Assembly: GCA_023823795.1 (NCBI GenBank)
Contig: CP085710.1
Location: forward strand, 2,568,001-2,632,000
From: Bacillus sp. F19
GTDB taxonomy: Bacteria > Bacillota > Bacilli > Bacillales > Bacillaceae
DNA: 64,000 nt
Reading direction: 5' to 3'
Positions 30,928 through 46,978 of the stretch are shown here, piece after piece (position 1 is the first letter of the stretch; each line of letters starts with the position of its first letter). The position numbers and the translations under genes were made by a program. The notes below the pieces were generated by a model, which saw nothing but the letters and a program-made list of their open reading frames with translations, was not told the origin of the DNA and did no database searches.

Positions 30928-31045
30928 CTTTTATAATGTGCTACTATTTAGACGAATAATCATTAATTCTTTAAAAATGTGAAAATAGTACTGTTTGTCG
31001 AAAAATAAAACTACCATCGGACGTTAATAAGAACTATAATTTATT

Positions 31046-31117
31046 TTATAAAGAACAAAAGTCTTCTATGCTATTCTGAAAAAAATAACTACAAGCATTT
31101 TGTTCTTTATAAAGAAT
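31046..31117 (+). promoter_or_regulatory. SinR-like boxes and inverted repeat before the second RiPP cluster
   Basis: TTATAAAGAACAAAA (31046-31060) and its exact reverse complement at 31098-31112 form 15-bp arms. They contain AAAGAAC (31050-31056) and GTTCTTT (31102-31108), the SinR operator half-site GTTCTYT. The second copy is itself part of a palindrome, GTTCTTTATAAAGAAT (31102-31117), one base from the perfect palindrome at 43956-43971. The element ends 24 nt before the precursor start. Control by SinR or a paralogue is inferred. Confidence 0.6.
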
Positions 31118-31140: not shown

Positions 31141-31350
31141 ATGAAGAATGAACGTGAAGGAAATGTATCACGTCCAATGGTTTTAAGTCACCAGCCGGTT
31201 CGGTTTGAGACAGCTCAAAGCTGGAATAAAGGCCATGGAAATGTGGATCACCCTGGAAATGGAAATGGCGGGATTCATTATCCTAATCCACCATATACCG
31301 GTCCCCGCCATGATAATGGGGGAGGAAAGGGAAAGGGAAAGGGAAATTAA
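31141..31350 (+). CDS. Putative RiPP precursor peptide, unknown class
   Basis: Small peptide of 69 aa. An N-terminal leader-like part (about 1-27) has NVSRPMVLSHQPVRFET, where RPMVL resembles the xxPxL element bound by PqqD/B1-type recognition domains. The C-terminal half (about 28-69) is rich in Gly, Asn, His, Pro and Lys: SWNKGHGNVDHPGNGNGG, then IHYPNPPYTGPRHDNGGG and a KGKGKGN end. There is no Cys and one Ser in the core-like part. ATG 31141 follows GAGG by 6 nt; the ATG at 31129 lies upstream of that site. It is first in an operon with a kinase, PqqD-like protein, protease, exporter and nucleotidyltransferase. The role as precursor is inferred from context. Confidence 0.65.
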   Translation: MKNEREGNVSRPMVLSHQPVRFETAQSWNKGHGNVDHPGNGNGGIHYPNPPYTGPRHDNGGGKGKGKGN

Positions 31351-31358
31351 AATCCACA

Positions 31359-31394
31359 ATAAAGAAGGTCCATATGTCTTATGGCCTTCTTTAT
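31359..31394 (+). other. Hairpin between the precursor and kinase genes
   Basis: ATAAAGAAGG plus CCAT pairs with ATGG plus CCTTCTTTAT with one bulged T and a 7-base loop, just after the precursor stop. The end TTTAT gives weak terminator character. A partial terminator here would yield more precursor than enzyme mRNA. The lasso cluster has a hairpin at the same relative place (40487-40517). Confidence 0.7.
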
Positions 31395-31415
31395 ATGATG
31401 ATTGAGGAGAACTAT

Positions 31416-32195
31416 ATGACCTTTATAAATACTAAAATTGGTGAGTATAACATTAGACTGCATTGTGAAAATAAGAAACTAGTTAAATTTTTAACTCACC
31501 AATTCCTATTAATAGATAATGGCAGAAATATAGATTTATCGGTATTTATTGCTGAAGGCTACGGTCAGCCCTTTAAAAATTATGATGTAGAGATTTCTGA
31601 AACCCGAAATTCCATCACTTTTAAAAGAGCAGATTACAAAATTACAGTTGACCCAAATTACACGCAAGCGGAACTACATGTTCACAACGAACTAGCACTA
31701 AAACACGCTTTAATGAGCCTTTACAGTTCATTTATTGTTCACAAAAACTGGGGGATTCTTCTTCATTCTTCTTGTGTCCTTGAGACAAATGGTGCACACA
31801 TTTTCACAGGACATTCTGGAGCAGGAAAATCCACAGCAGCAAAACTGTCTTCTCCCCGCCCGCTTTTGTCTGACGAAGCAACAATCATAAAAATCGAAAA
31901 AGACGGAGTTAGGGCCTATGACTCACCATTCAGAAGTGAATTGCATGGACATGCACCAGTTTCTAATACAAAACTGCTGAGCATTGACCTTCTCCATCAA
32001 TCTCTTTCAATTGAAAGAAACCGGGTCGATAAATCATCAGCCCTTTTAGCATTATTAGATAAGGTATTCTATTGGCCCAGCAATAAAGAAGAAACGAAAA
32101 AAATTCTTACCATGCTGCGATTTCTCGTAGAGCATGTTGACATTTATGATCTTTATTTTCAAAAAAACAATCGATTTTGGGAGATGATTTCATGA
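31416..32195 (+). CDS. HPr-kinase-like peptide kinase of the second RiPP cluster
   Basis: Predicted kinase of 259 aa related to the HprK/P C-terminal domain. The P-loop reads FTGHSGAGKSTAAKL (about residues 128-142), followed by LLSDEATIIK (acidic metal/base motif) and the RSELHGHAPV segment. The same family (PadeK/ThcoK type) phosphorylates a Ser in some lasso peptides, so a kinase role on the precursor or product is plausible. ATG 31416 follows GAGGAG. The stop overlaps the next gene as ATGA. Sequence similarity to the kinase at 39484 is limited to the core motifs, so the two loci are not a recent duplication. Confidence 0.75.
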   Translation: MTFINTKIGEYNIRLHCENKKLVKFLTHQFLLIDNGRNIDLSVFIAEGYGQPFKNYDVEISETRNSITFKRADYKITVDPNYTQAELHVHNELALKHALMSLYSSFIVHKNWGILLHSSCVLETNGAHIFTGHSGAGKSTAAKLSSPRPLLSDEATIIKIEKDGVRAYDSPFRSELHGHAPVSNTKLLSIDLLHQSLSIERNRVDKSSALLALLDKVFYWPSNKEETKKILTMLRFLVEHVDIYDLYFQKNNRFWEMIS

Positions 32196-32461
32196 CAACT
32201 TATTATAAACAAGCACCAGATTGCGAAACAGTAGAAATCGATGGAGAATGGATGATTCTTCACTCCGTGCATTTCACCATTACAAAGTTAAATGAAACGG
32301 GCGGATTCTGCTGGTCATTGCTAAAAGATGCACACACTGTAGACGAACTGGTTCTGACTTATCAAACTCAGTTTAACAACAACAAACAGAAAACAAAAAA
32401 TGAGCTTCAGTGCTTTCTAAAAGAACTAGAACATTACGGATTGATTGAGCATGCGGTTTGA
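32192..32461 (+). CDS. PqqD/B1-like precursor recognition protein
   Basis: 89-aa protein of the PqqD family (RiPP recognition element). It has a beta-strand-rich first half (DCETVEIDGEWMILHSVHFTITKLNETGGFCWSLLKDAHTVDELV) and a helical end (TKNELQCFLKELEHYGLIEHA). Such proteins bind the leader peptide and present it to the modifying enzyme or protease. ATG 32192 is 8 nt after GGGAG and overlaps the kinase stop. It is the counterpart of the B1 protein at 39200. Confidence 0.8.
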   Translation: MTTYYKQAPDCETVEIDGEWMILHSVHFTITKLNETGGFCWSLLKDAHTVDELVLTYQTQFNNNKQKTKNELQCFLKELEHYGLIEHAV

Positions 32462-32894
32462 TCAGAATACAATCAATCTATTGAAAGCGACCATTGAAAA
32501 ACACGGATGGATTGACTTGCCTGCTGAAGGCTTCAGCATGTATCCCTTTATTCAAAAAGGTGAAATTTGCCGATTTATAAAATTCGATAATAGTAACCTT
32601 AAAAAAGGGCAGATCCTTCTCTTTTATTCAAAATCAGGGAAGTTGATTGCCCACAGATTATACCGCTATGAAAAGGGGCATTACATCCTAAAAGGCGATA
32701 CAAACGAATGCCTGGATGAGCCAGTATCACCTGCTCAAGTGATTGGCTGCCTGGAATCTGTTCAAAAACAGAAAGGCATGATCAGTATGTATAAGCCTTT
32801 TGCATTTCTATACAGTCAAGCAGTCGTTACATCTCCCTTCTCAGCACGGCTGTTCCGCTTCTATTTAAAAAGAAGACTCGGTAAAGCGCTATGA
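32451..32894 (+). CDS. S24/S26-type signal peptidase-like protein (Ser/His)
   Basis: 147-aa protein with the S26 nucleophile box EGFSMYPFIQKGE (Ser29) and, in place of the usual catalytic Lys box, KLIAHRLYR (His68). A Ser/His pair is typical of SipW/ER-type signal peptidases. KGDTNECLDEPV matches the next conserved box (GDxN). Only a weak hydrophobic C-terminal segment (FAFLYSQAVV) is present. In this operon it takes the place of the lasso B2 protease and may remove the leader peptide. ATG 32451 overlaps the PqqD-like gene; a TTG at 32445 is also possible. Confidence 0.78.
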   Translation: MRFDQNTINLLKATIEKHGWIDLPAEGFSMYPFIQKGEICRFIKFDNSNLKKGQILLFYSKSGKLIAHRLYRYEKGHYILKGDTNECLDEPVSPAQVIGCLESVQKQKGMISMYKPFAFLYSQAVVTSPFSARLFRFYLKRRLGKAL

Positions 32895-34693
32895 TCAAAA
32901 AGAAATGGACCACATTCAAAAACATGTTTTTAATAGAAGATATCCGCAGGACATTCACTTTGCTTGGTCCCTATCTATTAAAGTACAAAAGTTTCTACAT
33001 ATCTCTTTTTTTGATTATGCTCTCACAAATTTTATTAACGATCGGTTTTGCTTGGTTCTTTGGAACAATCACAGATGCTGCCGTTCAAAATGAAACGGAT
33101 AAACTAAAATGGCTGCTGCCACTGGGTCTTGGCTTACTAAGTATAAGTTTGGCAACGACGTACTCTTACACTTATTTAGAGTCCATAACAATCAATAAAG
33201 TAAAACTTGAACTCAAAAAACAAGTATTAAAGCATCTTCTACTTTTGCCCGTGAAAAAAACAGCAAACATGCGAACTGGAGATTTAATGACCCATTTTAC
33301 AAACGATGTCAATTGCATCGAAGGAGTCATCGGCAGCAACCTGCTTTATCTCATTCAGCTCCCTTTAACATTTGCTGCTGTTTCTGTTTACATATTTATC
33401 ATCAATTGGCAGATGGCTTTAATAGGTTTTACTGTGATCCCTCTTGCCATTATTATTGGGGCTGTTTTTGGCATCCTGCTCAGAAACAACAGCAGAAAAA
33501 TGTTTACTCAAATCAGTGATATTAACAGTACACTTAATGAAATTTTCCAGGGTTTATCCGTTATTCGATCTTTTCTTTTAGAGAAAAAAATGTCTCAAAA
33601 GCAAAACAGTCAAAACCAGGAACTCTTTACATTAGAAATGAAAAATACAAAGCTCCGCGGCTTTTTTTATATTGGCGGAGAAGCCATTACTTCCATCACA
33701 TATATAACTGGACTTTGCTTGGGAGCTTATTTTGTTTCTAAATCAATGATTACAGTTGGTTCGCTGCTCACCTTCGTTACTCTGATGCAGCACCTGATCT
33801 CCCCGCTTACCGGTTTAGCAGGAATTTGGGGCAGCTTCCAAAGTTCAGCATCAGCAGTTGAAAGACTATCAAACGTATTAAATGAAGAAGTTGAACTAAA
33901 CCATTTTCCTGAATACGTTCCATCAAAAATTAAAGGCTCTATTCAACTGAAGAACATTACCTTCAGTTATGATCAGCAAAAAAATTCGATAGATAACATG
34001 ACATTAGACATACCAGCCGGCCAAACAGTTGCGATTGTCGGTCCAAGCGGTGCAGGAAAATCAACACTCTTTCACCTTATCCAAGGCTTCTATCAGCCAG
34101 ACAGCGGAACGATCATGCTGGATCACAATCCAGAAGAACACCTTCCGCCCTCTGTGGTAAGAAGTTCTTTCGCATATGTTGCGCAAGAGACCTTTCTTTT
34201 CTCTGGAACAATCAAAGATAACCTCTTGCTCGCACGGCCAAATATCTCAAATTCAGAGCTGATCACTGCAGCAAAACAAGCAAACATTCATGATTTTATC
34301 ATGTCATTGCCAAATCAATATGACACACAAGTTGGAGAAAGAGGCGTCCGTCTTTCAGGAGGGCAAAAACAAAGGCTTTCTATTGCAAGAGCCATCCTAA
34401 AAAATGCACCTATTCTGTTACTAGATGAAGCAACATCCGCACTCGACAGTGAAAGTGAGCTATTAGTTAAAAATGCGCTGGAAGCTATTAAAAGTAAAAC
34501 AACTTTAATTATCGCCCATCGCTTATCAACTATACAGCATGCTGATTTTATTGTAGTTATGGATGAGGGGAAAATTGTTCAGATGGGGAGACATGAGGAG
34601 CTGATTACTCAAGAAGGTCTATATAGAAAATTATCAAACCTGCAATTTAAAACAAAAGAAAAACTGCCTTCATTACAAGCAATCTCACAATAA
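32891..34693 (+). CDS. ABC transporter, fused membrane and ATPase domains (exporter)
   Basis: Half-size exporter of 600 aa. Six membrane helices span about 30-310, followed by an ATPase domain with Walker A VGPSGAGKST, Q-loop VAQETFLF, signature LSGGQKQRLS, Walker B ILLLDEATSALDS and the H-loop IAHRLST. No N-terminal C39 peptidase domain is present, so leader removal must be done by another protein. It overlaps the protease gene as ATGA. It probably exports the mature peptide and gives self-protection. Same family as the transporter at 35719 but clearly divergent. Confidence 0.88.
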   Translation: MIKKKWTTFKNMFLIEDIRRTFTLLGPYLLKYKSFYISLFLIMLSQILLTIGFAWFFGTITDAAVQNETDKLKWLLPLGLGLLSISLATTYSYTYLESITINKVKLELKKQVLKHLLLLPVKKTANMRTGDLMTHFTNDVNCIEGVIGSNLLYLIQLPLTFAAVSVYIFIINWQMALIGFTVIPLAIIIGAVFGILLRNNSRKMFTQISDINSTLNEIFQGLSVIRSFLLEKKMSQKQNSQNQELFTLEMKNTKLRGFFYIGGEAITSITYITGLCLGAYFVSKSMITVGSLLTFVTLMQHLISPLTGLAGIWGSFQSSASAVERLSNVLNEEVELNHFPEYVPSKIKGSIQLKNITFSYDQQKNSIDNMTLDIPAGQTVAIVGPSGAGKSTLFHLIQGFYQPDSGTIMLDHNPEEHLPPSVVRSSFAYVAQETFLFSGTIKDNLLLARPNISNSELITAAKQANIHDFIMSLPNQYDTQVGERGVRLSGGQKQRLSIARAILKNAPILLLDEATSALDSESELLVKNALEAIKSKTTLIIAHRLSTIQHADFIVVMDEGKIVQMGRHEELITQEGLYRKLSNLQFKTKEKLPSLQAISQ

Positions 34694-34707
34694 GGGATGG
34701 ATGAAAG

Positions 34708-35658
34708 ATGATCATACACTTTTTACAATCATTATATAATCAAACAAAATTACCAGAAATAGAAAGCGATTATCAATATTTAATAGAAGACATCCATCAC
34801 TTTTCAATTGAACCTCAAGTTTATTACCTATTAAAACAACATGACCGTCTTAATGAAACACCTGCTTTTTTCACTGACTACTTAAGGAAAGTAACAGATC
34901 AAATCTTGCTTCAAAACCTTTTTATTAAAGTACAAATGGAAAAGATATTAAAATTATTTGAAACTCAAAAAATAGACACCATCCCTTTAAAAGGTGTCTA
35001 TTTTGCGGAAAAATACTTTGGCCATATCGCTGCAAGATCTACTTCTGATATTGACTTACTGATACATCAAAAGGACAGACAAACGGTTGATGAATTACTA
35101 AGAAATCGAGGATTCATCTATGAAGATGAGGGTCCTAAAGATCACTTTCACTGCAGCTACAGATTGTATTTGCCTGGTTCTTCCATTCCATTAAGAGTCG
35201 AAATACATTGGAACCTATTAAAAGAAAATACCTCAGATCTGGACATTATTGAGTTTTGGAATGATGCGGTTCCTATAACGGCTTATCAACATATTAAAGA
35301 ACTCTCCAACCAGCATGCTTTTTATATGATTGTGCTTCATGCATGGCGTCATAATTTAGATTCATTGAGGCATTTTATTGATGTTGTACAAATGGTGAAT
35401 ATTTTGGATGAAAAGATTTGCTTTGAATCTCTTTTTAACCAGGCAAAGAAAGATAAAACTTTGAAAAGAGTTCAGAGAACGTTAAAAATCGTTTATAGGG
35501 TGTTTGGAGAAATAAAATATCCTGAACAACTATCTGTACAAAAGAATTACGGTAAGTGGTGGGAATATGAAAAGATTAGGGATCGGGAGTATCGGAGTTT
35601 GAGGGTTTATTTGGATTTCGTGGATTACTTATTGTTTAGTGTTGATAAAATAATATAA
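34708..35658 (+). CDS. Nucleotidyltransferase-family protein (NTP_transf_5 type)
   Basis: 316-aa protein of the uncharacterised nucleotidyltransferase family often found in lasso and related RiPP clusters. The core reads IDTIPLKGVYFAEKYFGH then RSTSDIDLLIHQKDR (Asp-x-Asp metal motif, about 110-120), with VEIHWNLL as third acidic strand. ATG follows GGGATGGATGAAAG. Last gene of the operon, before a bidirectional terminator. A homologue occurs in the neighbouring lasso cluster (37515). A nucleotidyl or other transfer to the peptide or to its phosphate is possible but unproven. Confidence 0.78.
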   Translation: MIIHFLQSLYNQTKLPEIESDYQYLIEDIHHFSIEPQVYYLLKQHDRLNETPAFFTDYLRKVTDQILLQNLFIKVQMEKILKLFETQKIDTIPLKGVYFAEKYFGHIAARSTSDIDLLIHQKDRQTVDELLRNRGFIYEDEGPKDHFHCSYRLYLPGSSIPLRVEIHWNLLKENTSDLDIIEFWNDAVPITAYQHIKELSNQHAFYMIVLHAWRHNLDSLRHFIDVVQMVNILDEKICFESLFNQAKKDKTLKRVQRTLKIVYRVFGEIKYPEQLSVQKNYGKWWEYEKIRDREYRSLRVYLDFVDYLLFSVDKII

Positions 35659-35718: not shown

Positions 35719-37518
35719 TTAAAGGCTTGCATCTTTTTGATTATTTAATAATTTCCCAAAAAGATTTTTCTTATCTTTCGCCAGCTGACCAAACTCACCT
35801 TTTTGGATGACATTCCCTTGATCTAAGACAATAACCTGATCCGCGTTTCTTATTGTTGACAGTCGATGAGCTATGACAATGATTGTCATACTTCCTTTGA
35901 GCCTTTCTAATGCTCTTTGAATATTTGCCTCGTTTTCGGTATCTAAAGCACTTGTAGCTTCATCTAAAACAAGTATAGAAGGCTTCCTTAATATTGCTCT
36001 TGCAAGGACAATTCGTTGTCTCTCCCCACCTGATAGACGTATACCCCTATCTCCAACTAATGTATCTAATCCATTTGGCAGTTTTTTAACAAATTCAGCA
36101 GCTGATGAAAATTCTAATGCTCTCCATATTTCTTCATCTGCAGCTTCAGATTCAACCATTAGAAGGTTTTCTTTAATACTCGCATTGAATAAAAATGGAT
36201 CTTGCGGCACGTAACTAACTGCTTTACGCATTGAAAGAAGGTTTTCACTTGTCAGAGGTGTGCCGTCAATTAAAACTTGACCTTTTTCTGGAAGATTTAA
36301 ACCCATTAAAATATCAATTAATGTACTTTTTCCTGCGCCAGATCTGCCGACAAATGCAGTCATTTTATTTGCAGGAATAACAACATTTATATCTTCTAAA
36401 GCATATGAGTCAGAAGGGTTCTGAGAATAGCGAAAATATACACTTTTACATTCAATCTCTTTCTTGATTCGAATAGGAATAATTGTAAGGTTCTCATAGT
36501 CTTTGAATTCAACAGCTTTTCTGGATTCATTTTGTAGATTCTTTACAGCATGAAATGAGGGAAGCATAGTAGCAATCTGCTCTAAAGAACTTTGAATTCC
36601 TGCCACTCTTGGCCATAACCTTGAAAAGATCACAACAATCAGCATTAATTCCCCCGCCTGTGCATGAAACATGTTTACTGCAATGAAAATAAACACAGCT
36701 ATAAGTATAGAAGAAGCCACTTTGTAATATAGTTGGGACATGGTCCTTAATGTGGTGTATTCAATCTGTTCATCTTGCATTCCTTCAGTTACGTTTAGAA
36801 ACCAATTCATTTTGGATTTTTCAAGAGTATTACTTTTAATATCCTTAATACCATTAATTTGATCGGTAATCCCAGCAAGGTATTCTTTCCCCAGAGAATA
36901 ATTTTTTTTCCCTAAAGCCAGTGACATCCTTAAAAATTTCCTGTTTAGAAAGACAATAAGAGCCCCGCAAAGCAATAAGAAAAACGTAATACTGGGAGAA
37001 AGAAAGAAGGCTAGACCGATTTGAATAACGGTAAAAATAAGAGATGCCAAAAATTGCAGCAGCGAATGAGTTCCGGCGCTAGAACGGGCAACTTCAGTTG
37101 TTAATAAATTGATTAAGTCTGATTTTCTATTTTTTATAAAAAAAGCCCAGTTTGCGTGGAGCAAAGAATGGTAAGTGTTTACTCGCAAGTGGCGAAAAAA
37201 ACCATGCTGGATTTTTATGTTCTGAATCGTTATGTGACGATGTAAAAAATTTTGTAAGATCACGATAAGAACAAAATTTAATAGAATAAATGGCAGACCG
37301 AAACTGCTTGGAATACGGTCAAAAAAAGAGAAAATCTCGTTAAAAGGGGTATTCCCCACATTAAAATCGATAATGCCAGTAATGCTTATCATGGGAATAA
37401 GCAATAAAATACCTACACCATCTAATAAACTTATAAACACAGTAGCTAATAAGTTAATATATAGTCTTTTCCCAGCATAAGATTGTATTTGCTTCAGAAA
37501 ATACAAGATTAGATTCAA
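35719..37518 (-). CDS. Lasso peptide ABC exporter (D protein)
   Basis: Half-size ABC exporter of 599 aa. Six membrane helices are followed by an ATPase domain with VGRSGAGKST, VPQDPFLFNAS, LSGGERQRIV, ILVLDEATSALDTE and IAHRLST. No peptidase domain is present. Last gene of the lasso operon, with a 4-nt overlap (ATGA) with the nucleotidyltransferase gene upstream. In lasso clusters the D protein exports the mature lasso and gives immunity. Confidence 0.88.
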   Translation of the reverse strand: MNLILYFLKQIQSYAGKRLYINLLATVFISLLDGVGILLLIPMISITGIIDFNVGNTPFNEIFSFFDRIPSSFGLPFILLNFVLIVILQNFLHRHITIQNIKIQHGFFRHLRVNTYHSLLHANWAFFIKNRKSDLINLLTTEVARSSAGTHSLLQFLASLIFTVIQIGLAFFLSPSITFFLLLCGALIVFLNRKFLRMSLALGKKNYSLGKEYLAGITDQINGIKDIKSNTLEKSKMNWFLNVTEGMQDEQIEYTTLRTMSQLYYKVASSILIAVFIFIAVNMFHAQAGELMLIVVIFSRLWPRVAGIQSSLEQIATMLPSFHAVKNLQNESRKAVEFKDYENLTIIPIRIKKEIECKSVYFRYSQNPSDSYALEDINVVIPANKMTAFVGRSGAGKSTLIDILMGLNLPEKGQVLIDGTPLTSENLLSMRKAVSYVPQDPFLFNASIKENLLMVESEAADEEIWRALEFSSAAEFVKKLPNGLDTLVGDRGIRLSGGERQRIVLARAILRKPSILVLDEATSALDTENEANIQRALERLKGSMTIIVIAHRLSTIRNADQVIVLDQGNVIQKGEFGQLAKDKKNLFGKLLNNQKDASL

Positions 37519-38708
37519 GATTTTTGCCCCCTAAGGTATCTTGTTTCTCTTTTCGTTTTCCTCCATGCCCATAAAAAGGGGCGTAAAAGGAAATACAAAA
37601 AATGAAGCCGATTTGGCAACGGGAGTGTTTCGGCGTCTTCTGGCAAAGGATGAATGCAACTAAGTAGAAAGAGTAATTTTTGTTTTGGCGACATTAAACT
37701 AAATAAATGTTTTGCATGATATTTACAGATATCATCAGGCACAGGATCTGTATGTAAGTTAACCATTCTTTCAAAATAAAAAATTGCCTCCTGAGCGAGT
37801 CCTCTTGATTTTTTATTTTCCACCATATGTGTCATATCGGTATTAACTTCTGCATTTAACAATTCCGATGCTAAAACCAAAGCCTGTGAACCTTGATTAA
37901 TGAAATGGTACTTTTTTAGCAATACCTGTATTCTATTCCAGTCTATATCCTGCCCCATCATATGCTGAATATCTGACAGCCACCTTAATCTTGACCATCC
38001 ATGTCTTGCTCCGTGCGACACCAGAAACAAAAATAAGTCTTCTTTTCCTAAAAAGTAGATTGGTGAAAATGTCAGGTTACTTTTACGTCTTTCCTTCCAT
38101 AGATCATCAAAATGAGGTTCAGGGCCAGGTCCTGGATTCAATCGCCAATGAACCTCAGCTTTAATTTTTTTGACTGGATGAAAATAAGTAAAATGATGAT
38201 GTCTCCACTTCCAATCGCCTAGCACAGAATGTATATATTCATCTTTTTTATAACCAAGGCTTTCCAAAAGTTCTTCTGTGATTTCAAGTTTTTCAAAAGG
38301 TACAAGAAAGTCCAGATCACTAGAAGTCCGGAGAGAAATATCTCCGTATAAATCATGGGCAATTACTGGCCCTTTTAAAAAAAGAACACGTATCTGTTCT
38401 TCTGTTAATTTCATGCTCAGCTGCTCCATTTCTGCACTTAAGAAAAGCATTTTGAATGTATTATTCTTGTATTTGTCGGCCAGATATTGAATAACGTTTG
38501 ATGGGATCATGTCTTCAGGAAGCTGTTTTAAGCGGGGATAAATCATTGTATAAACACGATGATGTGTACATAATTTTAAAAATAAAGTCCAATCAATCTT
38601 AGTAAACAAATACCTGCCTTTTTCGACTAAGTTTTCAACACTTTCGTCCTTTAAAAGTTCGAAAATGATCTTTAATTCTCTAGGCACCTTTGCTAAATTA
38701 AGTCTCAT
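37515..38708 (-). CDS. Nucleotidyltransferase-family protein of the lasso cluster
   Basis: 397-aa protein of the NTP_transf_5-type family. Core motifs are VLFLKGPVIAHDLYGDISLRTSSDLDFLVPFEK (DxD pair) and KAEVHWRLNPGPGPEP. I place the start at ATG 38708, 8 nt behind GGAGG, overlapping the end of the B2 gene by 11 nt. A longer frame from 38810 would run back through most of the end of B2. Its role is unknown; homologues accompany many Bacillales lasso clusters. Confidence 0.8.
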   Translation of the reverse strand: MRLNLAKVPRELKIIFELLKDESVENLVEKGRYLFTKIDWTLFLKLCTHHRVYTMIYPRLKQLPEDMIPSNVIQYLADKYKNNTFKMLFLSAEMEQLSMKLTEEQIRVLFLKGPVIAHDLYGDISLRTSSDLDFLVPFEKLEITEELLESLGYKKDEYIHSVLGDWKWRHHHFTYFHPVKKIKAEVHWRLNPGPGPEPHFDDLWKERRKSNLTFSPIYFLGKEDLFLFLVSHGARHGWSRLRWLSDIQHMMGQDIDWNRIQVLLKKYHFINQGSQALVLASELLNAEVNTDMTHMVENKKSRGLAQEAIFYFERMVNLHTDPVPDDICKYHAKHLFSLMSPKQKLLFLLSCIHPLPEDAETLPLPNRLHFLYFLLRPFLWAWRKTKRETRYLRGQKS

Positions 38709-39159
38709 TCTCAAATCCTCCAATTTTCTTAGCAAATTTGCCAACAACCGTATAATTCTCCTTACCCTCTGAACCCGTGACAAAATATGGTCCACTGCGC
38801 AGCCAAGCATGAGCTACAAGCTTCCCTGACTCATCTCTTGCTGTTCCCAAATATAAAGTGCTTTCAATGTTTCGCTTCTCCAGCATTTTCATTGCTGCAA
38901 TAGCTTTTACAAGACATTGGCTTTCCCAAAATGTATATTTGCTCATTATCTTAATAGCTTGAGAGACACTGGCTATCGTTTTTTTGTTAAAATTAATAGT
39001 TTCATAAGCTGTCTCTTCCATATGCTGCCCCAACGAAGGAGCTACTTTTGAAAAAGGTATACTTTTAAGATACCGACCAAGTCCTAAGTAAAAAAAAGAT
39101 TCTGCCAAAAGTAATTTAGTCTTCATATCCATTGAATGAAGCAGTAATAATTTATTCAA
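38698..39159 (-). CDS. Lasso peptide leader protease B2
   Basis: Transglutaminase-like cysteine protease of 153 aa that removes the leader before ring closure. The catalytic Cys is in FWESQCLVKAIAAMKML (about residue 82) and the His in GKLVAHAWLRSGPYFV (about 117). These match the B2 pattern of an early WxxxxCLxxA and a later HAW. It works with the separate B1 protein at 39200. Between it and B1 lie about 40 nt without an evident hairpin. Confidence 0.87.
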   Translation of the reverse strand: MNKLLLLHSMDMKTKLLLAESFFYLGLGRYLKSIPFSKVAPSLGQHMEETAYETINFNKKTIASVSQAIKIMSKYTFWESQCLVKAIAAMKMLEKRNIESTLYLGTARDESGKLVAHAWLRSGPYFVTGSEGKENYTVVGKFAKKIGGFENET

Positions 39160-39199
39160 GATCTCACTATCCCTTACTTAAAATAGATCGCACAATAAA

Positions 39200-39499
39200 C
39201 TAAATATCTTTTTCTAATTTAATTAATTTTTCTTTATTTAAGGACTCTAAAAAAGAAAGTACCTGTTTCTGGCATTCTTCTCTTTCAACTTGATATTGTG
39301 AAAGCAAACTTTCGATTAATTGATTAAAGTTTATAGGGCTTTCTATAAGATCCCAAATTACACCGCCCATTTCACCTAGATTATAGTATTTTCCATTACT
39401 TATACTGAGCATCACTTTTTCCCCGTTCATATCACTTACGATGTTTCCTTCTCCTTGGCGTACAATAAAATTTGTCGAAGACATTAGTGCGTTAACCAT
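39200..39499 (-). CDS. Lasso peptide leader-binding protein B1 (PqqD-like RRE)
   Basis: 99-aa protein of the PqqD/RRE family. The strands EKVMLSISNGKYYNLGEMGGVIWDLIESPI are followed by helices (FNQLIESLLSQYQVEREECQKQVLSFLESL). It binds the leader (Trp4-x-x-Pro7-x-Leu9 in the precursor) and hands it to B2 and the cyclase. ATG 39499 lies 10 nt behind AGGAGG. A second ATG at 39484, overlapping the kinase stop as TAATG, could also be used. Confidence 0.85.
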   Translation of the reverse strand: MVNALMSSTNFIVRQGEGNIVSDMNGEKVMLSISNGKYYNLGEMGGVIWDLIESPINFNQLIESLLSQYQVEREECQKQVLSFLESLNKEKLIKLEKDI

Positions 39500-40434
39500 A
39501 CAAATTTTTCCTCCTCTTTGATAGCATTTATTATTTCTTCAGCCAGTTCATGTGAAGTGAAACGGTTAGCTGGCCTGCTAAGCTGGTATAAATTGATTTT
39601 CTCAGCCATTGCTACAGTTATATTAAAATGCCATTCCATCAAACCCATTTGAGCGATAAAGAAATTACGATATGTATGTTTGAACAAAGTTTGAAGACTG
39701 TTTAGTTTATGGATTGGGTTTAATATTATCTCTGCAGTGTCCGATTTAACTAACTCAAAAACCCCCGAAAGCTGAAGCTTCTGAGAAACAAATTGATTTT
39801 TCACTGGAACTGCGTATTTAGTTTCTCTATTAAAAATCTGTTTATAACCATTTGCATCCATTCCAAACTCATTAAGACTTTCTAACCAAAGTTTTTGCTG
39901 AGGATAAGCCGGAGTTATTAAGGGAAGTTTTTCTTCATTTAGAGTTACGGGAATAACATCATCACTGATAAGCTGATACCCCTTATTTAATAAAGAAGAA
40001 GCCAAAGTTGATTTGCCTGCTCCTGAGTCACCTATAATGGCGTATGCTTTACCGTCGATTGCTATAGCACTGCCGTGCAGGGGCAAAACTCTTCTTTGCA
40101 TTAATATTGCACCCATACATGTTCCAAGCAGGTAAAGACGAATTAGATCATCATCAGCATCAGCCAAAGGAGAATAGAGAATTTCTCTTCCTTTTTGCAC
40201 CAAAAAAATACCAACTGCTTGAATTTTGAACATGATAAATTCTTTTTTTATAACAAAAGATTTATTTTTATCTGATAGTTCTTTCCAGATCGAGGTCAAA
40301 TCTGATATTTCTATTATTATTTGAGGTTCATTCTCTTCTATTATAATTAGAGGCAGTTCAAGCAAATCTATGTCTGACTGTATATTAAATCCAAAAGCAT
40401 GGTACAGCTGTGTCTTCAAACGAACTTTATTCAA
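39484..40434 (-). CDS. Lasso peptide kinase (HPr-kinase-like, PadeK/ThcoK type)
   Basis: 316-aa protein with the HprK-type P-loop YAIIGDSGAGKSTLASSLL (about residues 130-148) and LISDDVIPVTLNE as following acidic motif. Paeninodin-type clusters encode this kinase, which phosphorylates the side chain of the C-terminal Ser of the precursor. The precursor here does end in Ser, which supports the assignment. Translation starts at TTG 40434 behind CGGGGG. It is separated from the precursor gene by a strong hairpin. Confidence 0.87.
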   Translation of the reverse strand: MNKVRLKTQLYHAFGFNIQSDIDLLELPLIIIEENEPQIIIEISDLTSIWKELSDKNKSFVIKKEFIMFKIQAVGIFLVQKGREILYSPLADADDDLIRLYLLGTCMGAILMQRRVLPLHGSAIAIDGKAYAIIGDSGAGKSTLASSLLNKGYQLISDDVIPVTLNEEKLPLITPAYPQQKLWLESLNEFGMDANGYKQIFNRETKYAVPVKNQFVSQKLQLSGVFELVKSDTAEIILNPIHKLNSLQTLFKHTYRNFFIAQMGLMEWHFNITVAMAEKINLYQLSRPANRFTSHELAEEIINAIKEEEKFVWLTH

Positions 40435-40486
40435 GAAAACATCCCCCGAATTTTTATTAAAATCATGTAGATAAGATTATCAGTAA

Positions 40487-40517
40487 GTACCCCTATACTA
40501 TAAAAGTATAAGGGTAC
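40487..40517 (-). other. Hairpin between the lasso precursor and the kinase gene
   Basis: GTACCCCTATACT (40487-40499) and AGTATAAGGGTAC (40505-40517) form a 13-bp stem with one G-T pair and a 5-base loop. There is no T-run, so it may stabilise the precursor mRNA or slow read-through. It accounts for a likely excess of precursor over enzymes. Confidence 0.75.
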
Positions 40518-40538
40518 GATTTAAATTTATTAAAATAA

Positions 40539-40661
40539 TTAACTATAATGGACTACCTCATCTTCATCAGGCTGAACTGCGTCTGGTGTTTTAATTCCTG
40601 GTCCAGCCATTGTCAAACTTACATCCAATACTTCTAGTTCTGGTGTTTGCCAAGATTTCAT
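40539..40661 (-). CDS. Lasso peptide precursor, paeninodin family
   Basis: Precursor of 40 aa. The leader is MKSWQTPELEVLDVSLTM, with the recognition motif WxxPxLxxL and Thr at position -2 relative to the core. The core of 22 residues starts AGPGIKTPD and continues AVQPDEDEVV then HYS. It is close to paeninodin (AGPGTSTPD...VHYDS). The ring would join the amino group of Ala1 to the side chain of Asp9; the C-terminal Ser is the expected kinase target. ATG follows GGGAGGTGATTAC. It lies 4 nt after the cyclase stop and before the kinase gene. Confidence 0.93.
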   Translation of the reverse strand: MKSWQTPELEVLDVSLTMAGPGIKTPDAVQPDEDEVVHYS

Positions 40662-40665
40662 GTAA

Positions 40666-42609
40666 TCACCTCCCTTCAATTTTATTTAAAAATCTATATA
40701 ATATTAAACTTCGCATTAAAATTCTAAATTCATATTCAAAGATAAGCCTAGGTGTGTAGTCCATTTCAATTCTCTTAATGTATTTCGCCAATAGTTCGTT
40801 ATTTACAAAAGATGAAACTTTAGGATCTTTAAGTAGTTTGTAGAGTTCATCTATAAATGCTTTCCATGAGCTTATCATTCTATGAACTCCATCAGCCCCT
40901 TGTACTCCACGGGATCTCTGATTAAGTCTTATATCTTCTGGCAATAGTCCGTTAGTAGCTCTGCGGACAAGTGCCCGATCAAGTCCACTCTGGACGAATT
41001 GTTCATCTGGAACAGATAGACAAAATTGAACTACCCTTATATCGTTTGTAGGATCGCGCTCCCATAATGAATGTCTTAATGATAATTTGGTGCCGATAGT
41101 CCCATTTAAACCCCAAAAATGTAATTGTTTAAACTGATTATTTTTTATGTGATAAGCATCAGTCGTATTAGTTCCGCTTATATCGATTTCCTGCTCTTCC
41201 AGTTTTTCAAAAACTTTAGTTCGAGATGCAAATTCAGGATTTATCCAAATAGGAAAACTTTCTTGATTTTTCGAGTTAGAAAGCCTTGCAATTTCAGGAA
41301 ACGCTTTTCTACTTACAAATTTCATAATTCTTGATTTTTTCACACCTATATTTTTACTATATAGGTTCACTTCTTTATATAAGCTCGATAATTTGAATTG
41401 CCTTAACAAGCGGGCATAGTAATCTAAAGCTGGTCCAAAAGAAATTGTCCAATTGCCTCTTTGACCATTTAGAAGTAATCCAACTCCCTGACTACTTGCT
41501 TGCTCATAAATTCCTTTTAGCCAAAAAGAGTTTTCAAAAAATTTATAAGGCATCTCCAAAGTTTGCAGCCAATCATCGATTTCAGAATATGGATTAGTAT
41601 CCGAAAAGCTTAAATACTTATCATTAATGTTACCTACAAAGTTAACCGTCGATTCAATTAACGGTCTCTCATTAGCCACTCTATATCTATGTGTCCAATC
41701 AACAAAGTCATCCACTGGAACGTAACTAAATGTATGTAATCTTTTCTTTTTCTCTTTCAAAGCTTTAGCTGCAAAGCTAACAACGGAGCCAGAATCTAAC
41801 CCTCCGCTAAGGTGAGCACCGACACTTCGATGAGTCCGAAGTCTATCAATAACTGCTGTATTAAATACTTCTTTAAAAGCTTCTTCATATTCTCCATTAG
41901 ATTTCAATTTCAATTTAACCGAATAATCAAATTTAGAATATTGTCTCAGGTATAAACGTCCATTTTCGAGTTTAATAGTATGTGAAGGCGGCAATTGCTT
42001 AATATTGTCATAAACAGTCGTGTCGGTGGAAATGGAATCCGTTGTAACAGGTATTGCAATAAATTCAGCAAGCCACTGGTCATTCAGTTTTTTACTAATA
42101 TTAGAGATGGAGAAAAGAGGTTCAATAATTGTACTAAACGCAAATTTTGAACCGTCATTATAAAAATAAAGGGTTCTAGTACCAGAAAAGTCTCTTGCCC
42201 CGAAGAGCAATTGACGCTTTTCATCCCAGATCATAAAGGCAAAATCACCAACTAAATACTTGGGGGCTTCTTCTCCCCATTTTTCATATGCAAGCAATAT
42301 TAACTTGCTGTCGGTAATATCTTTTCTCAAAAATTTACCCACTGCTAATCTATCAAATAGTTCCATACGATTATCAATAATGGCATCTGCAGTAATTGCC
42401 ATTTTTAACTCATAATCATAGTAAGGCAGTACTTCGCCCACTGATTCAGGTGTGATCCATTGCGCGTGGCAGCCAAGAAACAAATTCTGAATAGTCCATG
42501 TCTGAACATCATCTGCGGGAAACTTTTGCAAAGTTTTCATTACATTCTTACATTCTTCAATTCTTATTGGTTCACCGTCAAAATGATAAACTCCAACTAT
42601 TGCACTCAT
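40666..42609 (-). CDS. Lasso peptide macrolactam synthetase C (asparagine synthetase-like)
   Basis: 647-aa enzyme that adenylates the Asp9 side chain of the core and closes the ring on the N-terminal amine. The N-terminal glutaminase-like domain starts MSAIVGVYHF and lacks the catalytic Cys2 of true asparagine synthetases. The C-terminal domain has the PP-loop HLSGGLDSGSVVSFAAK (about residue 260) and later LRHSLWERDPTNDIRVVQFCLSVP. This is typical of lasso C proteins. First gene of the lasso operon, with SinR-like boxes 40-85 nt upstream. Confidence 0.9.
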   Translation of the reverse strand: MSAIVGVYHFDGEPIRIEECKNVMKTLQKFPADDVQTWTIQNLFLGCHAQWITPESVGEVLPYYDYELKMAITADAIIDNRMELFDRLAVGKFLRKDITDSKLILLAYEKWGEEAPKYLVGDFAFMIWDEKRQLLFGARDFSGTRTLYFYNDGSKFAFSTIIEPLFSISNISKKLNDQWLAEFIAIPVTTDSISTDTTVYDNIKQLPPSHTIKLENGRLYLRQYSKFDYSVKLKLKSNGEYEEAFKEVFNTAVIDRLRTHRSVGAHLSGGLDSGSVVSFAAKALKEKKKRLHTFSYVPVDDFVDWTHRYRVANERPLIESTVNFVGNINDKYLSFSDTNPYSEIDDWLQTLEMPYKFFENSFWLKGIYEQASSQGVGLLLNGQRGNWTISFGPALDYYARLLRQFKLSSLYKEVNLYSKNIGVKKSRIMKFVSRKAFPEIARLSNSKNQESFPIWINPEFASRTKVFEKLEEQEIDISGTNTTDAYHIKNNQFKQLHFWGLNGTIGTKLSLRHSLWERDPTNDIRVVQFCLSVPDEQFVQSGLDRALVRRATNGLLPEDIRLNQRSRGVQGADGVHRMISSWKAFIDELYKLLKDPKVSSFVNNELLAKYIKRIEMDYTPRLIFEYEFRILMRSLILYRFLNKIEGR

Positions 42610-42780: not shown

Positions 42781-43845
42781 CTAATTAACAGAAACGGGCA
42801 TCGATTTTAAAACAACTATCTGTTTTTTGTTTTCTACCTCATATCCATTCGGATTATTGAGTTGCCAACGCCAAGAGTCAGAACACATTTCTTCAATTCC
42901 TTTTTTTGCAACCCAATCTAACTCCTTTTGTGCTTTTGTAGGATCCGCATAACTAATTCCGATATCTCCTGGTCTCCGGTCAATTATTTTGTATGGTATA
43001 TTCTTACCTATTACTTTTTCAAATGCGTGGATCATTTCCAACACACTATACCCTTTACCAGTCCCAAGATTATAGGCACTGACACCTACAGAGGATATTA
43101 CCTTTTCAAGTGCTTTTATATGACCAGCTGCAAGATCAACAACATGTATAAAATCTCTTATTCCTGTTCCATCATGGGTAGAATAATCATTGCCAAAAAC
43201 GTTCAGCTCTGTCCTCTTTCCTATCGCCACTTGTGTAATATAAGGAACTAAATTATTTGGAATACCATTTGGATCTTCCCCAATTAGACCACTAGGATGA
43301 GCCCCAACAGGATTAAAGTACCGCAGGAGTGTTATGCTCCATTTATTGTTTGACACATATATATCTCTTAATATCTCCTCAATCATCAATTTGGTTCTGC
43401 CATATGGATTGGTTGCTTCAAGTGGTAATTCCTCAATAAGCGGAACATGTTCTTGCGTACCGTAAACGGTTGCTGATGAACTGAATACAAGATTTCTTAC
43501 TCCGAATTTTTCCATCAATTCAAATAGAATAACAGAACCTGTTATATTGTTGTGATAATAATGCAGCGGCATTTCTACTGATTCTCCTACAGCTTTAAGC
43601 CCTGCGAAATGAATTACAGCTTCAATTTGATTTTCAATAAAAACAGATTGTAATGCAGCTCTGTCTAATAAATCTAAGTAATAAAATTTAAAATCTTTTC
43701 CAGTAATTTCTTTGATCCTGTTTAGTGAACTTTTATTTGAATTAGATAAATTATCAATAATAATAATGTCATATCCTGCGTTCAACAATTCAACACATGT
43801 ATGTGAGCCTATGTATCCTGCACCGCCTGTAACTAAGATTGCCAT
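42781..43845 (-). CDS. galE: UDP-glucose 4-epimerase
   Basis: Interconverts UDP-glucose and UDP-galactose (possibly also the N-acetyl forms), supplying precursors for the exopolysaccharide. The 354-aa protein has the NAD-binding start [21 protein letters not shown], the catalytic SSSATVYG and YGRTKLMIE (Ser/Tyr-x3-Lys), [18 protein letters not shown] and [13 protein letters not shown] place the start at ATG 43845 behind TTGGAG; an upstream in-frame extension to 43899 would cover the -10 box and part of the operator. It has a SinR-like control region, as matrix genes do. Confidence 0.93.
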
Positions 43846-43872
43846 TTCTACCAACTCCAAACTAATTAGTTT

Positions 43873-43897
43873 ATTATAAGAATTCTTAATAAAGAAC
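43873..43897 (-). promoter_or_regulatory. galE promoter -10 box with SinR-like operator
   Basis: TATAAT (43873-43878, minus strand) lies 27 nt upstream of the galE start. Directly upstream is ATTCTTAATAAAGAAC (43882-43897), which matches the palindrome GTTCTTTATAAAGAAC at 14 of 16 positions and contains a full AAAGAAC half-site. It would occupy the -10/-35 spacer, so binding would block the promoter. No good -35 box is visible. Confidence 0.55.
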
Positions 43898-43947
43898 ATT
43901 TTATGTTTAATTTTTATTAAATGAAAATAGGTCAGAAATACTATAAG

Positions 43948-43979
43948 TAAATTAAGTTCTTTATAAAGAACTTAATTTA
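43948..43979. promoter_or_regulatory. 32-bp perfect palindrome with consensus SinR operator core
   Basis: The centre, GTTCTTTATAAAGAAC (43956-43971), is two GTTCTYT half-sites in perfect inverted order. The symmetry extends to 32 bp without mismatch. It lies 103 nt upstream of the galE start and about 60 bp from the second SinR-like site. A SinR tetramer could bridge the two. It also could form a cruciform or RNA hairpin, but there is no gene end here that would need a terminator. Confidence 0.65.
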
Positions 43980-44440: not shown

Positions 44441-46978
44441 ATGAATATTGAAGATTTGGATAATGTTGATTTAACAACCGAGCCGTTATTTAATAATAGC
44501 GTTTTAAGTTACGACAGTAGTACTGCAAAATGGGTTTCAAAAAATGTAAGTAATTTTAGTTATCTGATTGAATTAGAAAGATGGGGAATAAAAAATGATG
44601 GTACTGAAGCTGTAAATACAACTAAAGGAATCAATGACGCTTTGAATTGGGCAGCAACAAATAGTTATGGAGAAGTAATGTTTCCTAAAGGGACCTATCT
44701 AATTGATGAAACTAACCCAATCTTAATCAAAAGCTTCATGACTTTGAACCTAAATGGATCAATGCTGAAAATACAAGACAATAGCTTAGAAAAATACGAT
44801 GTTGTTATTTTTGATAATGTAATATTCTCTCGTATCACTAATGGTGAAATTAAAGGGGACAGAGACACACATATATATTTAAAAGATGGTGTAGATTCCG
44901 ATACTCACGAAGGTGGGATAGGAATTAAAATATATAGAGATTGTAGATTTATTTCTGTAGATAATATAAATATATATAATTTCACGGGAGATGCAATTGT
45001 ATCTGGAGGGACATTCCCTTCACTTCCCTATTACCTTAGGCAATCAAGTGCTGAACTGGGTGCATATAGCATAAGTGATGGCTCTCCTATAACTGATTCA
45101 AAAAAAATAAGATTTACAACAAAAATTTTAATGAACGATCCAAATATTGTTAAGGCTGGCCATTGGGGCATATATGGTGGTGGTTACGGTAATTTAGGTA
45201 TCGATGTAAGTGCAGAATTTTATGATGTTATTTTTTATAAATCAGATGATACTTTTCATTCTGCTATTGAAAAAGTTCAATTTTTTGATGAAGTTCCTAA
45301 ACCAGATGGTGTTAGTTATGCTAGAGTAGTACTTTATCAAAATACCATTCCTTCCGATAGTAATAATAGTTTATGGGTAAGAGTTAACAGTCATCCTGAA
45401 AACATATTTTTGGAAAAATTAGATATACATCATTGTCGAAGACAAGGTATGAGTCTTGGTGGAAAGCATATTTATGTTAGAGACAATAAAATTCATCACA
45501 TTGGTGGAGATACTTTCAATATTGGAACTGACCCACAAGGTGGAATTGATATTGAAGATGGATATGATCTTAACCAACATTACTATATAGAACAGAATCA
45601 CTTTTATAATAATTGGGGTTATGACTTAGTCATTACAAATGGCAAGTATATGTATATCAATGGAAATCGTTTTAATAAAGTAGCTAAATATGTCTCTGTA
45701 GCAATAAATGCACCAACAGATAAGTCATTTTTCATCAACAATATTCTTCATCTATGTAAAGTAGTTATAGCTGGAGAAGTCATCGTTTCAGAAAATCATT
45801 TCTATGGAACAGCTTGTTCTTTTGGAAGCAACGATTCTATAAAAAGGTATGGAAGAAGTATAGAAATTAAAGACTCTGTTTTCCATAACTCTGTTTTAAC
45901 TATAGATCAAATAATTCCTTACACTATTAGAGTTGAAGGCTGTAAGTTTCTAAATGATTCTTCAAAAATAAGTACTTTTGGTTCACTTAATTCCACTCTA
46001 ATACTAAAATCGGAACCACAAATAATAATGAATTGTTCATTTGATGGGGATGATGTTAACTATACCATTTATAATTTAAACTCCCCTAAAGGAGGATGGA
46101 TCTTTGATACTTTAACTTTTAAAAATATTAATAAGCAATTCAGTTTCCCTCCGTCTTCAATTCGCAATTGCAAGTTTATGGATATTTCAACAATTGGAAT
46201 AAATACTTCAATTTTAAACAATGATTTTGATGTTGAATTTATTGATTGTTGGATAAAAAGTAAAGATCAAAATAATCCTTTATTCACACTTAATAATATG
46301 AAGACATTTAAGATGGTGAACTGTTATATTGAAAAGAAAGATAGCCCATTATTTATTTTTCAAAATATTAAAGACCAAGTAATAATTAGAAATAATACAT
46401 TTAAATATCCTTCATCTGTATTTAGCAACAGAGTCGTATTCAATATTAATTCTACTTTCTTAGGTAACGTTATATTAATTGAAAATAATATTATCAACTC
46501 ATCTTTAGATAAACCACTTCTTTTAAATGAAACTACAAATGATCCTAAAATCTTAATAGCAGGTAATATTTTGAATGGAATTAATTTAAAGCGTGGAAAG
46601 GAAAAATTAATAAATAATATAATAAATGGTGTACTTGATCCTTATTACCACATGGATTCAGAACCCACATCAGGATATTATGTTAAAGGAGATATAATTT
46701 ATAACACTAACCCAACCCCGGGTGGATATATCGGATGGATATGTACAACTTCTGGGTACGTTACAAAAAAAACATGGATACCCTCAACTAACTTTACAAA
46801 GGGAACATTAATTTACTTTAATGATCATATTTACCAAGCACAAAACGACGGCATTTCAGGTTCAACTCCTCCTTTTTTTTCGACTACCCCAGAACAACCA
46901 ATTATTGATAATAATTTAATATGGAAAGTAGCAGGAAACGAGTCAATATTTAAGAAATTTGGCTATATTGAAAACTAA
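44441..46978 (+). CDS. Right-handed beta-helix protein, tailspike/polysaccharide-lyase type
   Basis: 845-aa protein. The N-terminus has the pectate-lyase-3 pattern: WGIKNDGTEAVNTTKGINDALNWAATNSYGEVMFPKGTYLI (about 50-90). A long parallel beta-helix follows, with repeated I-x-x-N-x-F/I turns and Asn ladders (YIEQNHFYNNWGYDLVITNGKYMYINGNRF). A C-terminal part (about 745-840) carries two aromatic repeats, GYYVKGDIIYNTNP...GWICTTSG and FTKGTLIYFNDHIYQAQNDG. No signal peptide or anchor is visible. The fold is that of phage tailspikes and polysaccharide depolymerases. Between galE and the eps operon it may cut or modify exopolysaccharide. The ribosome site is weak. Confidence 0.7.
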   Translation: MNIEDLDNVDLTTEPLFNNSVLSYDSSTAKWVSKNVSNFSYLIELERWGIKNDGTEAVNTTKGINDALNWAATNSYGEVMFPKGTYLIDETNPILIKSFMTLNLNGSMLKIQDNSLEKYDVVIFDNVIFSRITNGEIKGDRDTHIYLKDGVDSDTHEGGIGIKIYRDCRFISVDNINIYNFTGDAIVSGGTFPSLPYYLRQSSAELGAYSISDGSPITDSKKIRFTTKILMNDPNIVKAGHWGIYGGGYGNLGIDVSAEFYDVIFYKSDDTFHSAIEKVQFFDEVPKPDGVSYARVVLYQNTIPSDSNNSLWVRVNSHPENIFLEKLDIHHCRRQGMSLGGKHIYVRDNKIHHIGGDTFNIGTDPQGGIDIEDGYDLNQHYYIEQNHFYNNWGYDLVITNGKYMYINGNRFNKVAKYVSVAINAPTDKSFFINNILHLCKVVIAGEVIVSENHFYGTACSFGSNDSIKRYGRSIEIKDSVFHNSVLTIDQIIPYTIRVEGCKFLNDSSKISTFGSLNSTLILKSEPQIIMNCSFDGDDVNYTIYNLNSPKGGWIFDTLTFKNINKQFSFPPSSIRNCKFMDISTIGINTSILNNDFDVEFIDCWIKSKDQNNPLFTLNNMKTFKMVNCYIEKKDSPLFIFQNIKDQVIIRNNTFKYPSSVFSNRVVFNINSTFLGNVILIENNIINSSLDKPLLLNETTNDPKILIAGNILNGINLKRGKEKLINNIINGVLDPYYHMDSEPTSGYYVKGDIIYNTNPTPGGYIGWICTTSGYVTKKTWIPSTNFTKGTLIYFNDHIYQAQNDGISGSTPPFFSTTPEQPIIDNNLIWKVAGNESIFKKFGYIEN

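Follow-up and report, generated by a model that had tools for sequence, protein, structure and literature searches.

A linear polyphosphorylated peptide operon with a tyrosine-less leader and a likely SinR-type operator in Bacillus sp. F19

Gene content of the operon

The window analysed here is a 64,000-nucleotide stretch of Bacillus sp. F19 (contig CP085710.1, positions 2,568,001 to 2,632,000), whose plus strand carries, between 31141 and 35658, six genes that we assign to the linear polyphosphorylated peptides (LPP). The probability of this assignment, taken as an lppAKBSDN cluster with a chemistry predicted by analogy and likely repressed by SinR together with neighbouring galE-lasso and exopolysaccharide (eps) genes, is about 0.9. 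A preliminary description of this DNA had listed the same plus-strand operon; all six frames are present among the open reading frames of the window and their families were recovered with Pfam and NCBIfam models. The same description held the class to be unrecognised, which is no longer tenable since the gene set has been published as LPP, with core order lppA-K-B-S-D-N, from Paenibacillus alginolyticus DSM5050 (Popov et al., Nat Commun, 20 May 2026; PMC13381572, cited throughout for the sections consulted). Its caveat that the gene set might already have been described proved partly right.

The first gene, lppA (31141..31350), encodes a 69-aa precursor made of a 24-aa leader ending in FET and a 45-aa core starting AQSW; a Shine-Dalgarno-like GAGG precedes the frame and the leader is conserved. 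No Pfam or NCBIfam family was matched by this precursor. A predicted RNA hairpin follows on the same strand (31359..31394, z −4.3 in the window), with z below −2 in 30 of the 45 loci compared below, and may set precursor expression above that of the enzymes. Next comes lppK (31416..32195), encoding an HprK-like kinase with a clear P-loop (GHSGAGKST) and otherwise a weak match (HprK_rel_A, expect value (E) 2e-5, far under the cut-off); it scores 23.8 bits with the TIGR04352 model against a cut-off of 200, and comparison with solved structures gave one chance match and nothing useful. Although the longest frame opens at 31374, lppK probably starts at 31416, because GAGGAG lies six bases upstream of that ATG and relatives align late: among 15 relatives with a match, 12 start at residue 10 or beyond and three close ones at residue 1-4.

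Downstream, lppB (32192..32461) encodes a discrete recognition element (RRE) of the PqqD family (PF05402, E 2e-10), and lppS (32451..32894, longest frame from a TTG at 32445) a SipW-like leader peptidase of the S24/S26 signal peptidase type (TIGR02228, E 2.7e-11, below that model's cut-off). The product of lppD (32891..34693) is an MsbA-type ABC exporter with ABC_membrane and ABC_tran domains, a C39 peptidase not being among its Pfam matches, and that of lppN (34708..35658) belongs to the NTP_transf_5 family (PF14907, E 8e-39). Neither a cyclase nor a B2 protease was found between 31141 and 35658 by open reading frame list and Pfam; both lie in the neighbouring lasso cluster, in keeping with the proposal that this is a second operon for a ribosomally synthesised and post-translationally modified peptide (RiPP), separate from the lasso genes.

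Conservation across Bacillota

Relatives were collected in several ways. In a family sample of 81 genomes the precursor returned 17 matches including its own genome, of which 16 are real and one (G034) is a chance match. Among 16 fetched relatives' stretches, 13 hold all six genes in order; in the others only the second half of the transporter was matched (L022), the locus is cut by a contig end (L027) or the match is due to chance (L033). The pattern HQx[IV]xFET[AS]Q, derived from aligned precursors, was then scanned over one genome per species in 84,980 species with tblastn confirmation, which detects leaders of that form alone. This returned 54 stretches and 36 confirmed loci, distributed in Bacillus, Metabacillus, Neobacillus, Mesobacillus, Priestia, Rossellomorea, Peribacillus, Fictibacillus, Paenibacillus and others; 35 of them carry the six genes in the same order and the remaining one (L053) is truncated by a contig end. 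The 69-aa frame is thus conserved next to this gene set, a point on which the preliminary description had made its claim depend. A search using the precursor against plasmids gave no match.

Our comparisons use a set of 45 loci: the window, eight fetched relatives' loci and the 36 pattern-scan loci. L020, L021, L023, L025, L027, L030 and L032 were dropped as apparent duplicates of pattern-scan records and L033 as a chance match, while the near relatives L018 and L019 were retained. Eight extra loci were found by profile, one of which (L089) apparently duplicates the L050 record. From the 37 genomes with an LPP precursor match in a sample of 397 genomes of the order, the six weakest matches and two others were opened; each of the eight belongs to an LPP gene set, and in five of these sets the gene order is altered.

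Some loci have peculiarities of their own. L086 (G245) has two HprK-like kinases, the precursor lying beside one of them, an altered gene order and no match to lasso B2 or a lasso-type cyclase. L092 (G324) encodes a 199-residue precursor with a 178-residue core rich in D/P/S/T, its lpp and lasso genes being interleaved. L063, in a record titled Chryseobacterium, is a Mesobacillus-like LPP operon whose kinase groups with Mesobacillus on the tree, probably from a mislabelled genome.

Precursor, recognition element and catalytic residues

The window leader, RPMVLSHQPVRF, reads RPMVLSHQPVRFET/AQSW at the cleavage point (slash), and its segment RPMVLSHQPVRFETAQS agrees with the published motif PxVLxHQxIxFETxxS, with Val for Ile. 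FET is found in all 45 precursors; it forms part of the search pattern for 36 of them and also holds in the nine that were not pattern-found and in 8/8 profile-found extra loci. Ser27, the third core residue and putative phosphate acceptor, falls outside the search pattern and is likewise invariant (45/45), as well as present in seven of the eight extra loci.

In LppS, Ser29 and His68 coincide with the published catalytic numbers, and S29, H68, D83 and D89 are kept in 45/45 sequences; the Asp is D83 or D89, its correspondence to the published D93 being uncertain. The LppN motif RSTSDIDLL is also conserved, with S113 in 42/44 and D114, I115 and D116 in 44/44. Compared with solved chains, the RRE of the window is closest to LppB (9x8z, E 1e-16), followed by the lasso RRE TbiB1 (8e-4) and a paeninodin-type RRE (9x90, E 1.1). 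The LPP assignment follows from the same gene set and order, the leader motif, core Ser3, the LppS catalytic residues and this RRE match to 9x8z.

The full published leader motif is YxxPxVLxHQxIxFETxxS, whose Tyr is important for LppB binding and bonds to D70 of the RRE in PMC13381572, where a crystal structure of the RRE with leader is given. In the window leader the YxxP Tyr corresponds to Val9. Tyr is present in 22 and absent from 23 of the 45 precursors (21 and 15, respectively, among the 36 from the pattern scan), a share that depends on a sample rich in the window's kin, and Trp occurs at this position in 0/45. We do not treat the YxxP Tyr as LPP-defining because otherwise complete operons are without it, and much of the sampled family must distinguish LPP from lasso leaders by other means. 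These Tyr-less leaders (23/45) question the generality of the Tyr/Trp rule of PMC13381572 separating LPP from lasso precursors.

Residues of the recognition element were compared with the type of leader. While N33 is present in 45/45 sequences, Asp70 is found in 19/22 Tyr-type loci versus 11/23 others (Fisher p 0.011) and Val35 in 12/22 versus 1/23 (p 0.0002). On the kinase tree the leader Tyr changes seven times, with just two independent pairs on well-supported branches; the pattern fits co-change of leader and RRE pocket, but with so few independent pairs it may also reflect common descent.

SinR-type operators upstream of lppA

A palindrome, GTTCTTTATAAAGAAT (31102..31117), starts 39 bp before the lppA start. 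It resembles the operator of SinR, the Bacillus subtilis biofilm repressor, which binds GTTCTYT and does so best as the inverted repeat TTTGTTCTCTAAAGAGAACTTA, with a dissociation constant (Kd) of 300 nM (PMC3163267). At 31041..31056 there is another, weaker site, which has a single complete half-site, AAAGAAC, and three mismatches.

To score this element, GTTCTYTNNARAGAAC (14 positions) was searched in the 250 bp upstream of lppA, with dinucleotide shuffles as control. Matches with at most one mismatch occur in 38/45 loci and with at most two in 43/45, against shuffle means of 0.04 and 0.38. Outside the motif-discovery set, 24 and 27 of the 29 loci match at these two levels (shuffles 0.015 and 0.25); 16 of the 29 had been inspected earlier, 14 of them with matches to an earlier motif form, and the 13 whose upstream DNA was uninspected before the first form was fixed give 11/13 and 13/13. 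Reversed or permuted motifs match at most 1/45 upstream regions. Other open reading frame starts in these loci match with at most one mismatch in 13/696 cases: the window galE before the lasso genes, the lasso cyclases of L024, L041, L042 and L064, a gene of L048 that is Wzz-like by eye, and seven more. Of 12 lasso cyclase genes, ten have an upstream match at two mismatches or fewer (shuffles 0.1) and six at one or fewer.

A sinR-like gene lies on the same strand within 1.1 kb upstream of lppA in 14/45 loci, and in ten of these (Metabacillus and kin) the distance from the end of its frame to lppA is 252-283 bp; the window has no such gene in that interval. Genes with SinI/SinR domains are found in 33/33 tested LPP genomes as well as in that of strain F19. 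Such genes are common in Bacilli and their presence alone proves little, the sinR-like genes beside lppA being more telling.

Operators before the lasso and exopolysaccharide genes

On the minus strand, 35719..42609 holds a paeninodin-type lasso cluster (ABC transporter, nucleotidyltransferase, B2, B1, kinase, precursor at 40542-40664 and cyclase), so the adjacent lasso cluster claimed before is real. Its precursor is PadeA-type with a WxxP, and the putative ABC transporter was called from its open reading frame. A galE-like epimerase gene (42781..43899, minus strand) is located upstream of the lasso cyclase on the same strand. Two SinR-type operators precede this galE-lasso group: one at 43882..43897, inside the longest galE frame and before the likely MAILVTGG start, and a perfect palindrome, GTTCTTTATAAAGAAC, at 43956..43971.

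In the whole F19 genome, the 16-mer form with at most one mismatch occurs at ten distinct sites (16 matches when the strands are counted separately, against 3 for the reversed control). Half of the sites cluster in a 36-kb stretch: lppA is preceded by one and the galE-lasso genes by two, and the remaining two, at the eps promoter, occupy the gap that separates an epsA-like Wzz gene from a divergently oriented gene of the SinR family shortly beyond the end of the window (L079, 5317-5399). As for the other five, one is about 0.7 kb from sinR and four are near or inside genes without evident biofilm link. A sinI-sinR pair is encoded elsewhere in the chromosome.

The exopolysaccharide locus extends from 43 to 64 kb of the window and into its continuation. 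Glycosyltransferases, a flippase, a polymerase-like protein, an acetyltransferase, an aminotransferase and a sugar transferase were assigned by eye, and Wzz, AAA_31 (tyrosine-kinase-like) and Polysacc_synt_2 by Pfam. Inside it, 44441-46978 on the plus strand encodes an 845-aa protein with no Pfam match at E 0.001, which by eye resembles a beta-helix surface or polysaccharide-active protein.

Association with lasso peptide genes

In the 397-genome sample of the order, an LPP precursor match occurs in 37 genomes and a lasso B2 match in 94 (93 over the cut-off), with both in 31 (Fisher p 4e-16, not corrected for kinship). Lasso genes lie in the flanks of 16/36 pattern-scan loci; 18 others were searched genome-wide, L053 and L063 being left out, and 17 have B2, for a total of 33/34. 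In the family sample B2 is found in 15/16 LPP genomes, the exception (G069) being an 89% complete draft. PMC13381572 states that more than half of LPP bacteria carry lasso genes; the association is stronger in the present samples (31/37; 33/34).

The six LPP genomes without lasso B2 (G245, G248, G265, G331, G383 and G420) were queried with the window cyclase and gave no lasso-type cyclase, the matches having 24-36% identity (best E 3e-25) and being asparagine-synthetase-like; control genomes with lasso clusters (G160 and G324) gave 51-52% identity and E near 1e-220. One of the six, G265, retains a lasso-type transporter fragment. In these six genomes the peptide and enzymes co-occur without a lasso-type cyclase, a point that the preliminary description had proposed to check.

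Proposed mechanism and alternatives

According to PMC13381572, LppK adds several phosphates to core Ser3, as seen by mass spectrometry with the cluster in B. subtilis, and the SipW-like LppS (S29, H68, D93) cleaves after FET, aided by LppB. Phosphorylation, cleavage and RRE binding having been shown for P. alginolyticus, we infer the same chemistry for the window by analogy. LppB would bind the leader and present the precursor, LppK would phosphorylate Ser27 (core Ser3 of AQSW), and LppS would cleave after FET24 to leave a linear 45-residue core rich in G/N/P/H/K. LppD would export the linear phosphopeptide, and the phosphate may receive an additional group, perhaps a sugar, from LppN.

As for control, the sequence makes it most likely that SinR or its paralogue represses lpp transcription through the palindrome before lppA, along with the galE-lasso and eps genes; predicted binding of SinR itself to this palindrome is highly probable. 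SinR would repress lpp, lasso and eps together and SinI would relieve the repression, so that the peptide would be made on the switch to biofilm. A biofilm role is suggested because the lpp operon, the neighbouring lasso genes and the eps genes carry matching SinR boxes. An independent hint comes from published reverse transcription quantitative PCR, in which lppB, lasso B1 and an exopolysaccharide gene were jointly up in stationary phase (PMC13381572); the same paper gives the LPP role as unknown and calls a biofilm role tempting but untested.

Several observations weigh against this account. Val in place of the LppB-binding Tyr of PMC13381572 and Glu at the D70 position of the window LppB mean that the details of leader binding must differ. 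The L091 (G420) precursor has a core that begins FET/DDH, without the Ser3 acceptor, although a kinase gene is present. L041 and L050 have no lppA operator above background (four mismatches), and 4/8 extra loci show at least three operator mismatches. Scanning for consensus sigma-70-type promoters gave none on the plus strand ahead of lppA: two promoters were called there against a shuffle mean of 2.2, neither on that strand, while seven were called before galE against a mean of 2.9 (standard deviation 2.1). Finally, PMC13381572 reports no native product detected in P. alginolyticus.

This last result would also suit a silent or decaying cluster that makes no product, yet catalytic and site residues are intact, the frames are open and the order is kept across genera, and we consider decay very improbable. 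As little credit goes to the idea that the neighbouring lasso cyclase acts in trans on the lppA precursor to yield a second lasso or cyclic peptide. Lasso genes are indeed usual in LPP genomes (31/37 versus 94/397 overall, besides the 33/34 and 15/16 above), but the six genes alone yield linear products in B. subtilis and RREs discriminate between leaders (PMC13381572), and 6/37 LPP genomes have neither a lasso B2 match nor a lasso-type cyclase. Moreover, Asp or Glu occurs at core residues 7-9 in 0/45 cores, and it is at residues 7-9 that lasso rings close. The preliminary description had sought the modification in the kinase, the nucleotidyltransferase or this cyclase; the kinase is borne out in the published relative, whereas a cyclase in trans is not needed and not supported, given the linear product and those six genomes.

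The palindrome might instead be read by another HTH_3 repressor, either SlrR or an unrelated Cro/CI protein. Consistent with this, the F19 genome has four SinI-domain matches, and the sinI-linked protein is distinct from the HTH_3 protein encoded divergently from the epsA-like gene; the site nevertheless fits the SinR operator measured in PMC3163267 and a sinR-like gene adjoins lppA in 14/45 loci, which leaves this alternative unlikely. A phospho-glycopeptide as end product has a real chance, slightly short of even, and is compatible with the LPP assignment: LppN, with galE or eps enzymes, would put a sugar on the Ser phosphate, the phosphate form being an intermediate. NTP_transf_5 is conserved with its RSTSDIDLL motif, and the galE gene that precedes the lasso cluster has operators of the SinR type as well. 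Glycosylation by a nucleotidyltransferase-family protein is reported for the lasso peptide pseudomycoidin; we know of no sugar-linked LPP product. Deletion of lppN had no visible effect on the products detectable in B. subtilis, and a partner from outside the core cluster may be required for LppN to act (PMC13381572).

Taking LPP with SinR control as our preferred reading, we speculate that LPPs and the paeninodin lasso peptides that accompany them are a single SinR-controlled branch of the Bacillota biofilm programme, co-made with exopolysaccharide, in which a Gly/Asn/Pro/Lys-rich phosphopeptide acts in the matrix, perhaps linked by LppN to eps sugars via the Ser phosphate; the odds on this wider proposal are evenly balanced. 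If the SinR link is true, deleting sinR should turn on the lpp, lasso and eps genes jointly and may provide growth conditions for isolating native products, so the operator data turn the biofilm guess of PMC13381572 into a one-strain test.

Comparison with known systems

The family itself is already known, and what appears new here is a member with a Tyr-less leader and the SinR operator link. The main text of PMC13381572 does not mention SinR, and the SinR operators, the stronger lasso association and the missing YxxP Tyr in 23/45 precursors apparently go beyond the sections consulted. In an open-licence literature search, none of the best-ranked matches, judged by title or abstract start, joins SinR with lasso peptides, RiPPs or LPPs.

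The window operon shares with the LPP cluster of P. alginolyticus DSM5050 the six genes and their order, the leader core motif, FET/AQS, a 45-aa core, the LppS Ser/His and the RRE family, and differs from it in the Val at the YxxP Tyr, the Glu of LppB at Asp70 and a core that diverges after AQS. With paeninodin-type lasso peptides it has in common an HprK-like kinase, a discrete PqqD-type RRE, an NTP_transf_5 protein and an ABC exporter, but it lacks the Asn-synthase-like cyclase, B2 and the leader WxxP, and has a SipW-like peptidase instead. The HPr-rel-A system (TIGR04352) likewise joins an HprK-related kinase to a PqqD-like protein, although the window kinase scores far below the cut-off of that model. 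Lastly, the B. subtilis SinR regulon (epsA-O and yqxM/tapA-sipW-tasA) is similar in operator type, in its SipW-like peptidase and in the adjoining eps-type locus, whereas the putatively regulated genes of the window would make a modified peptide.

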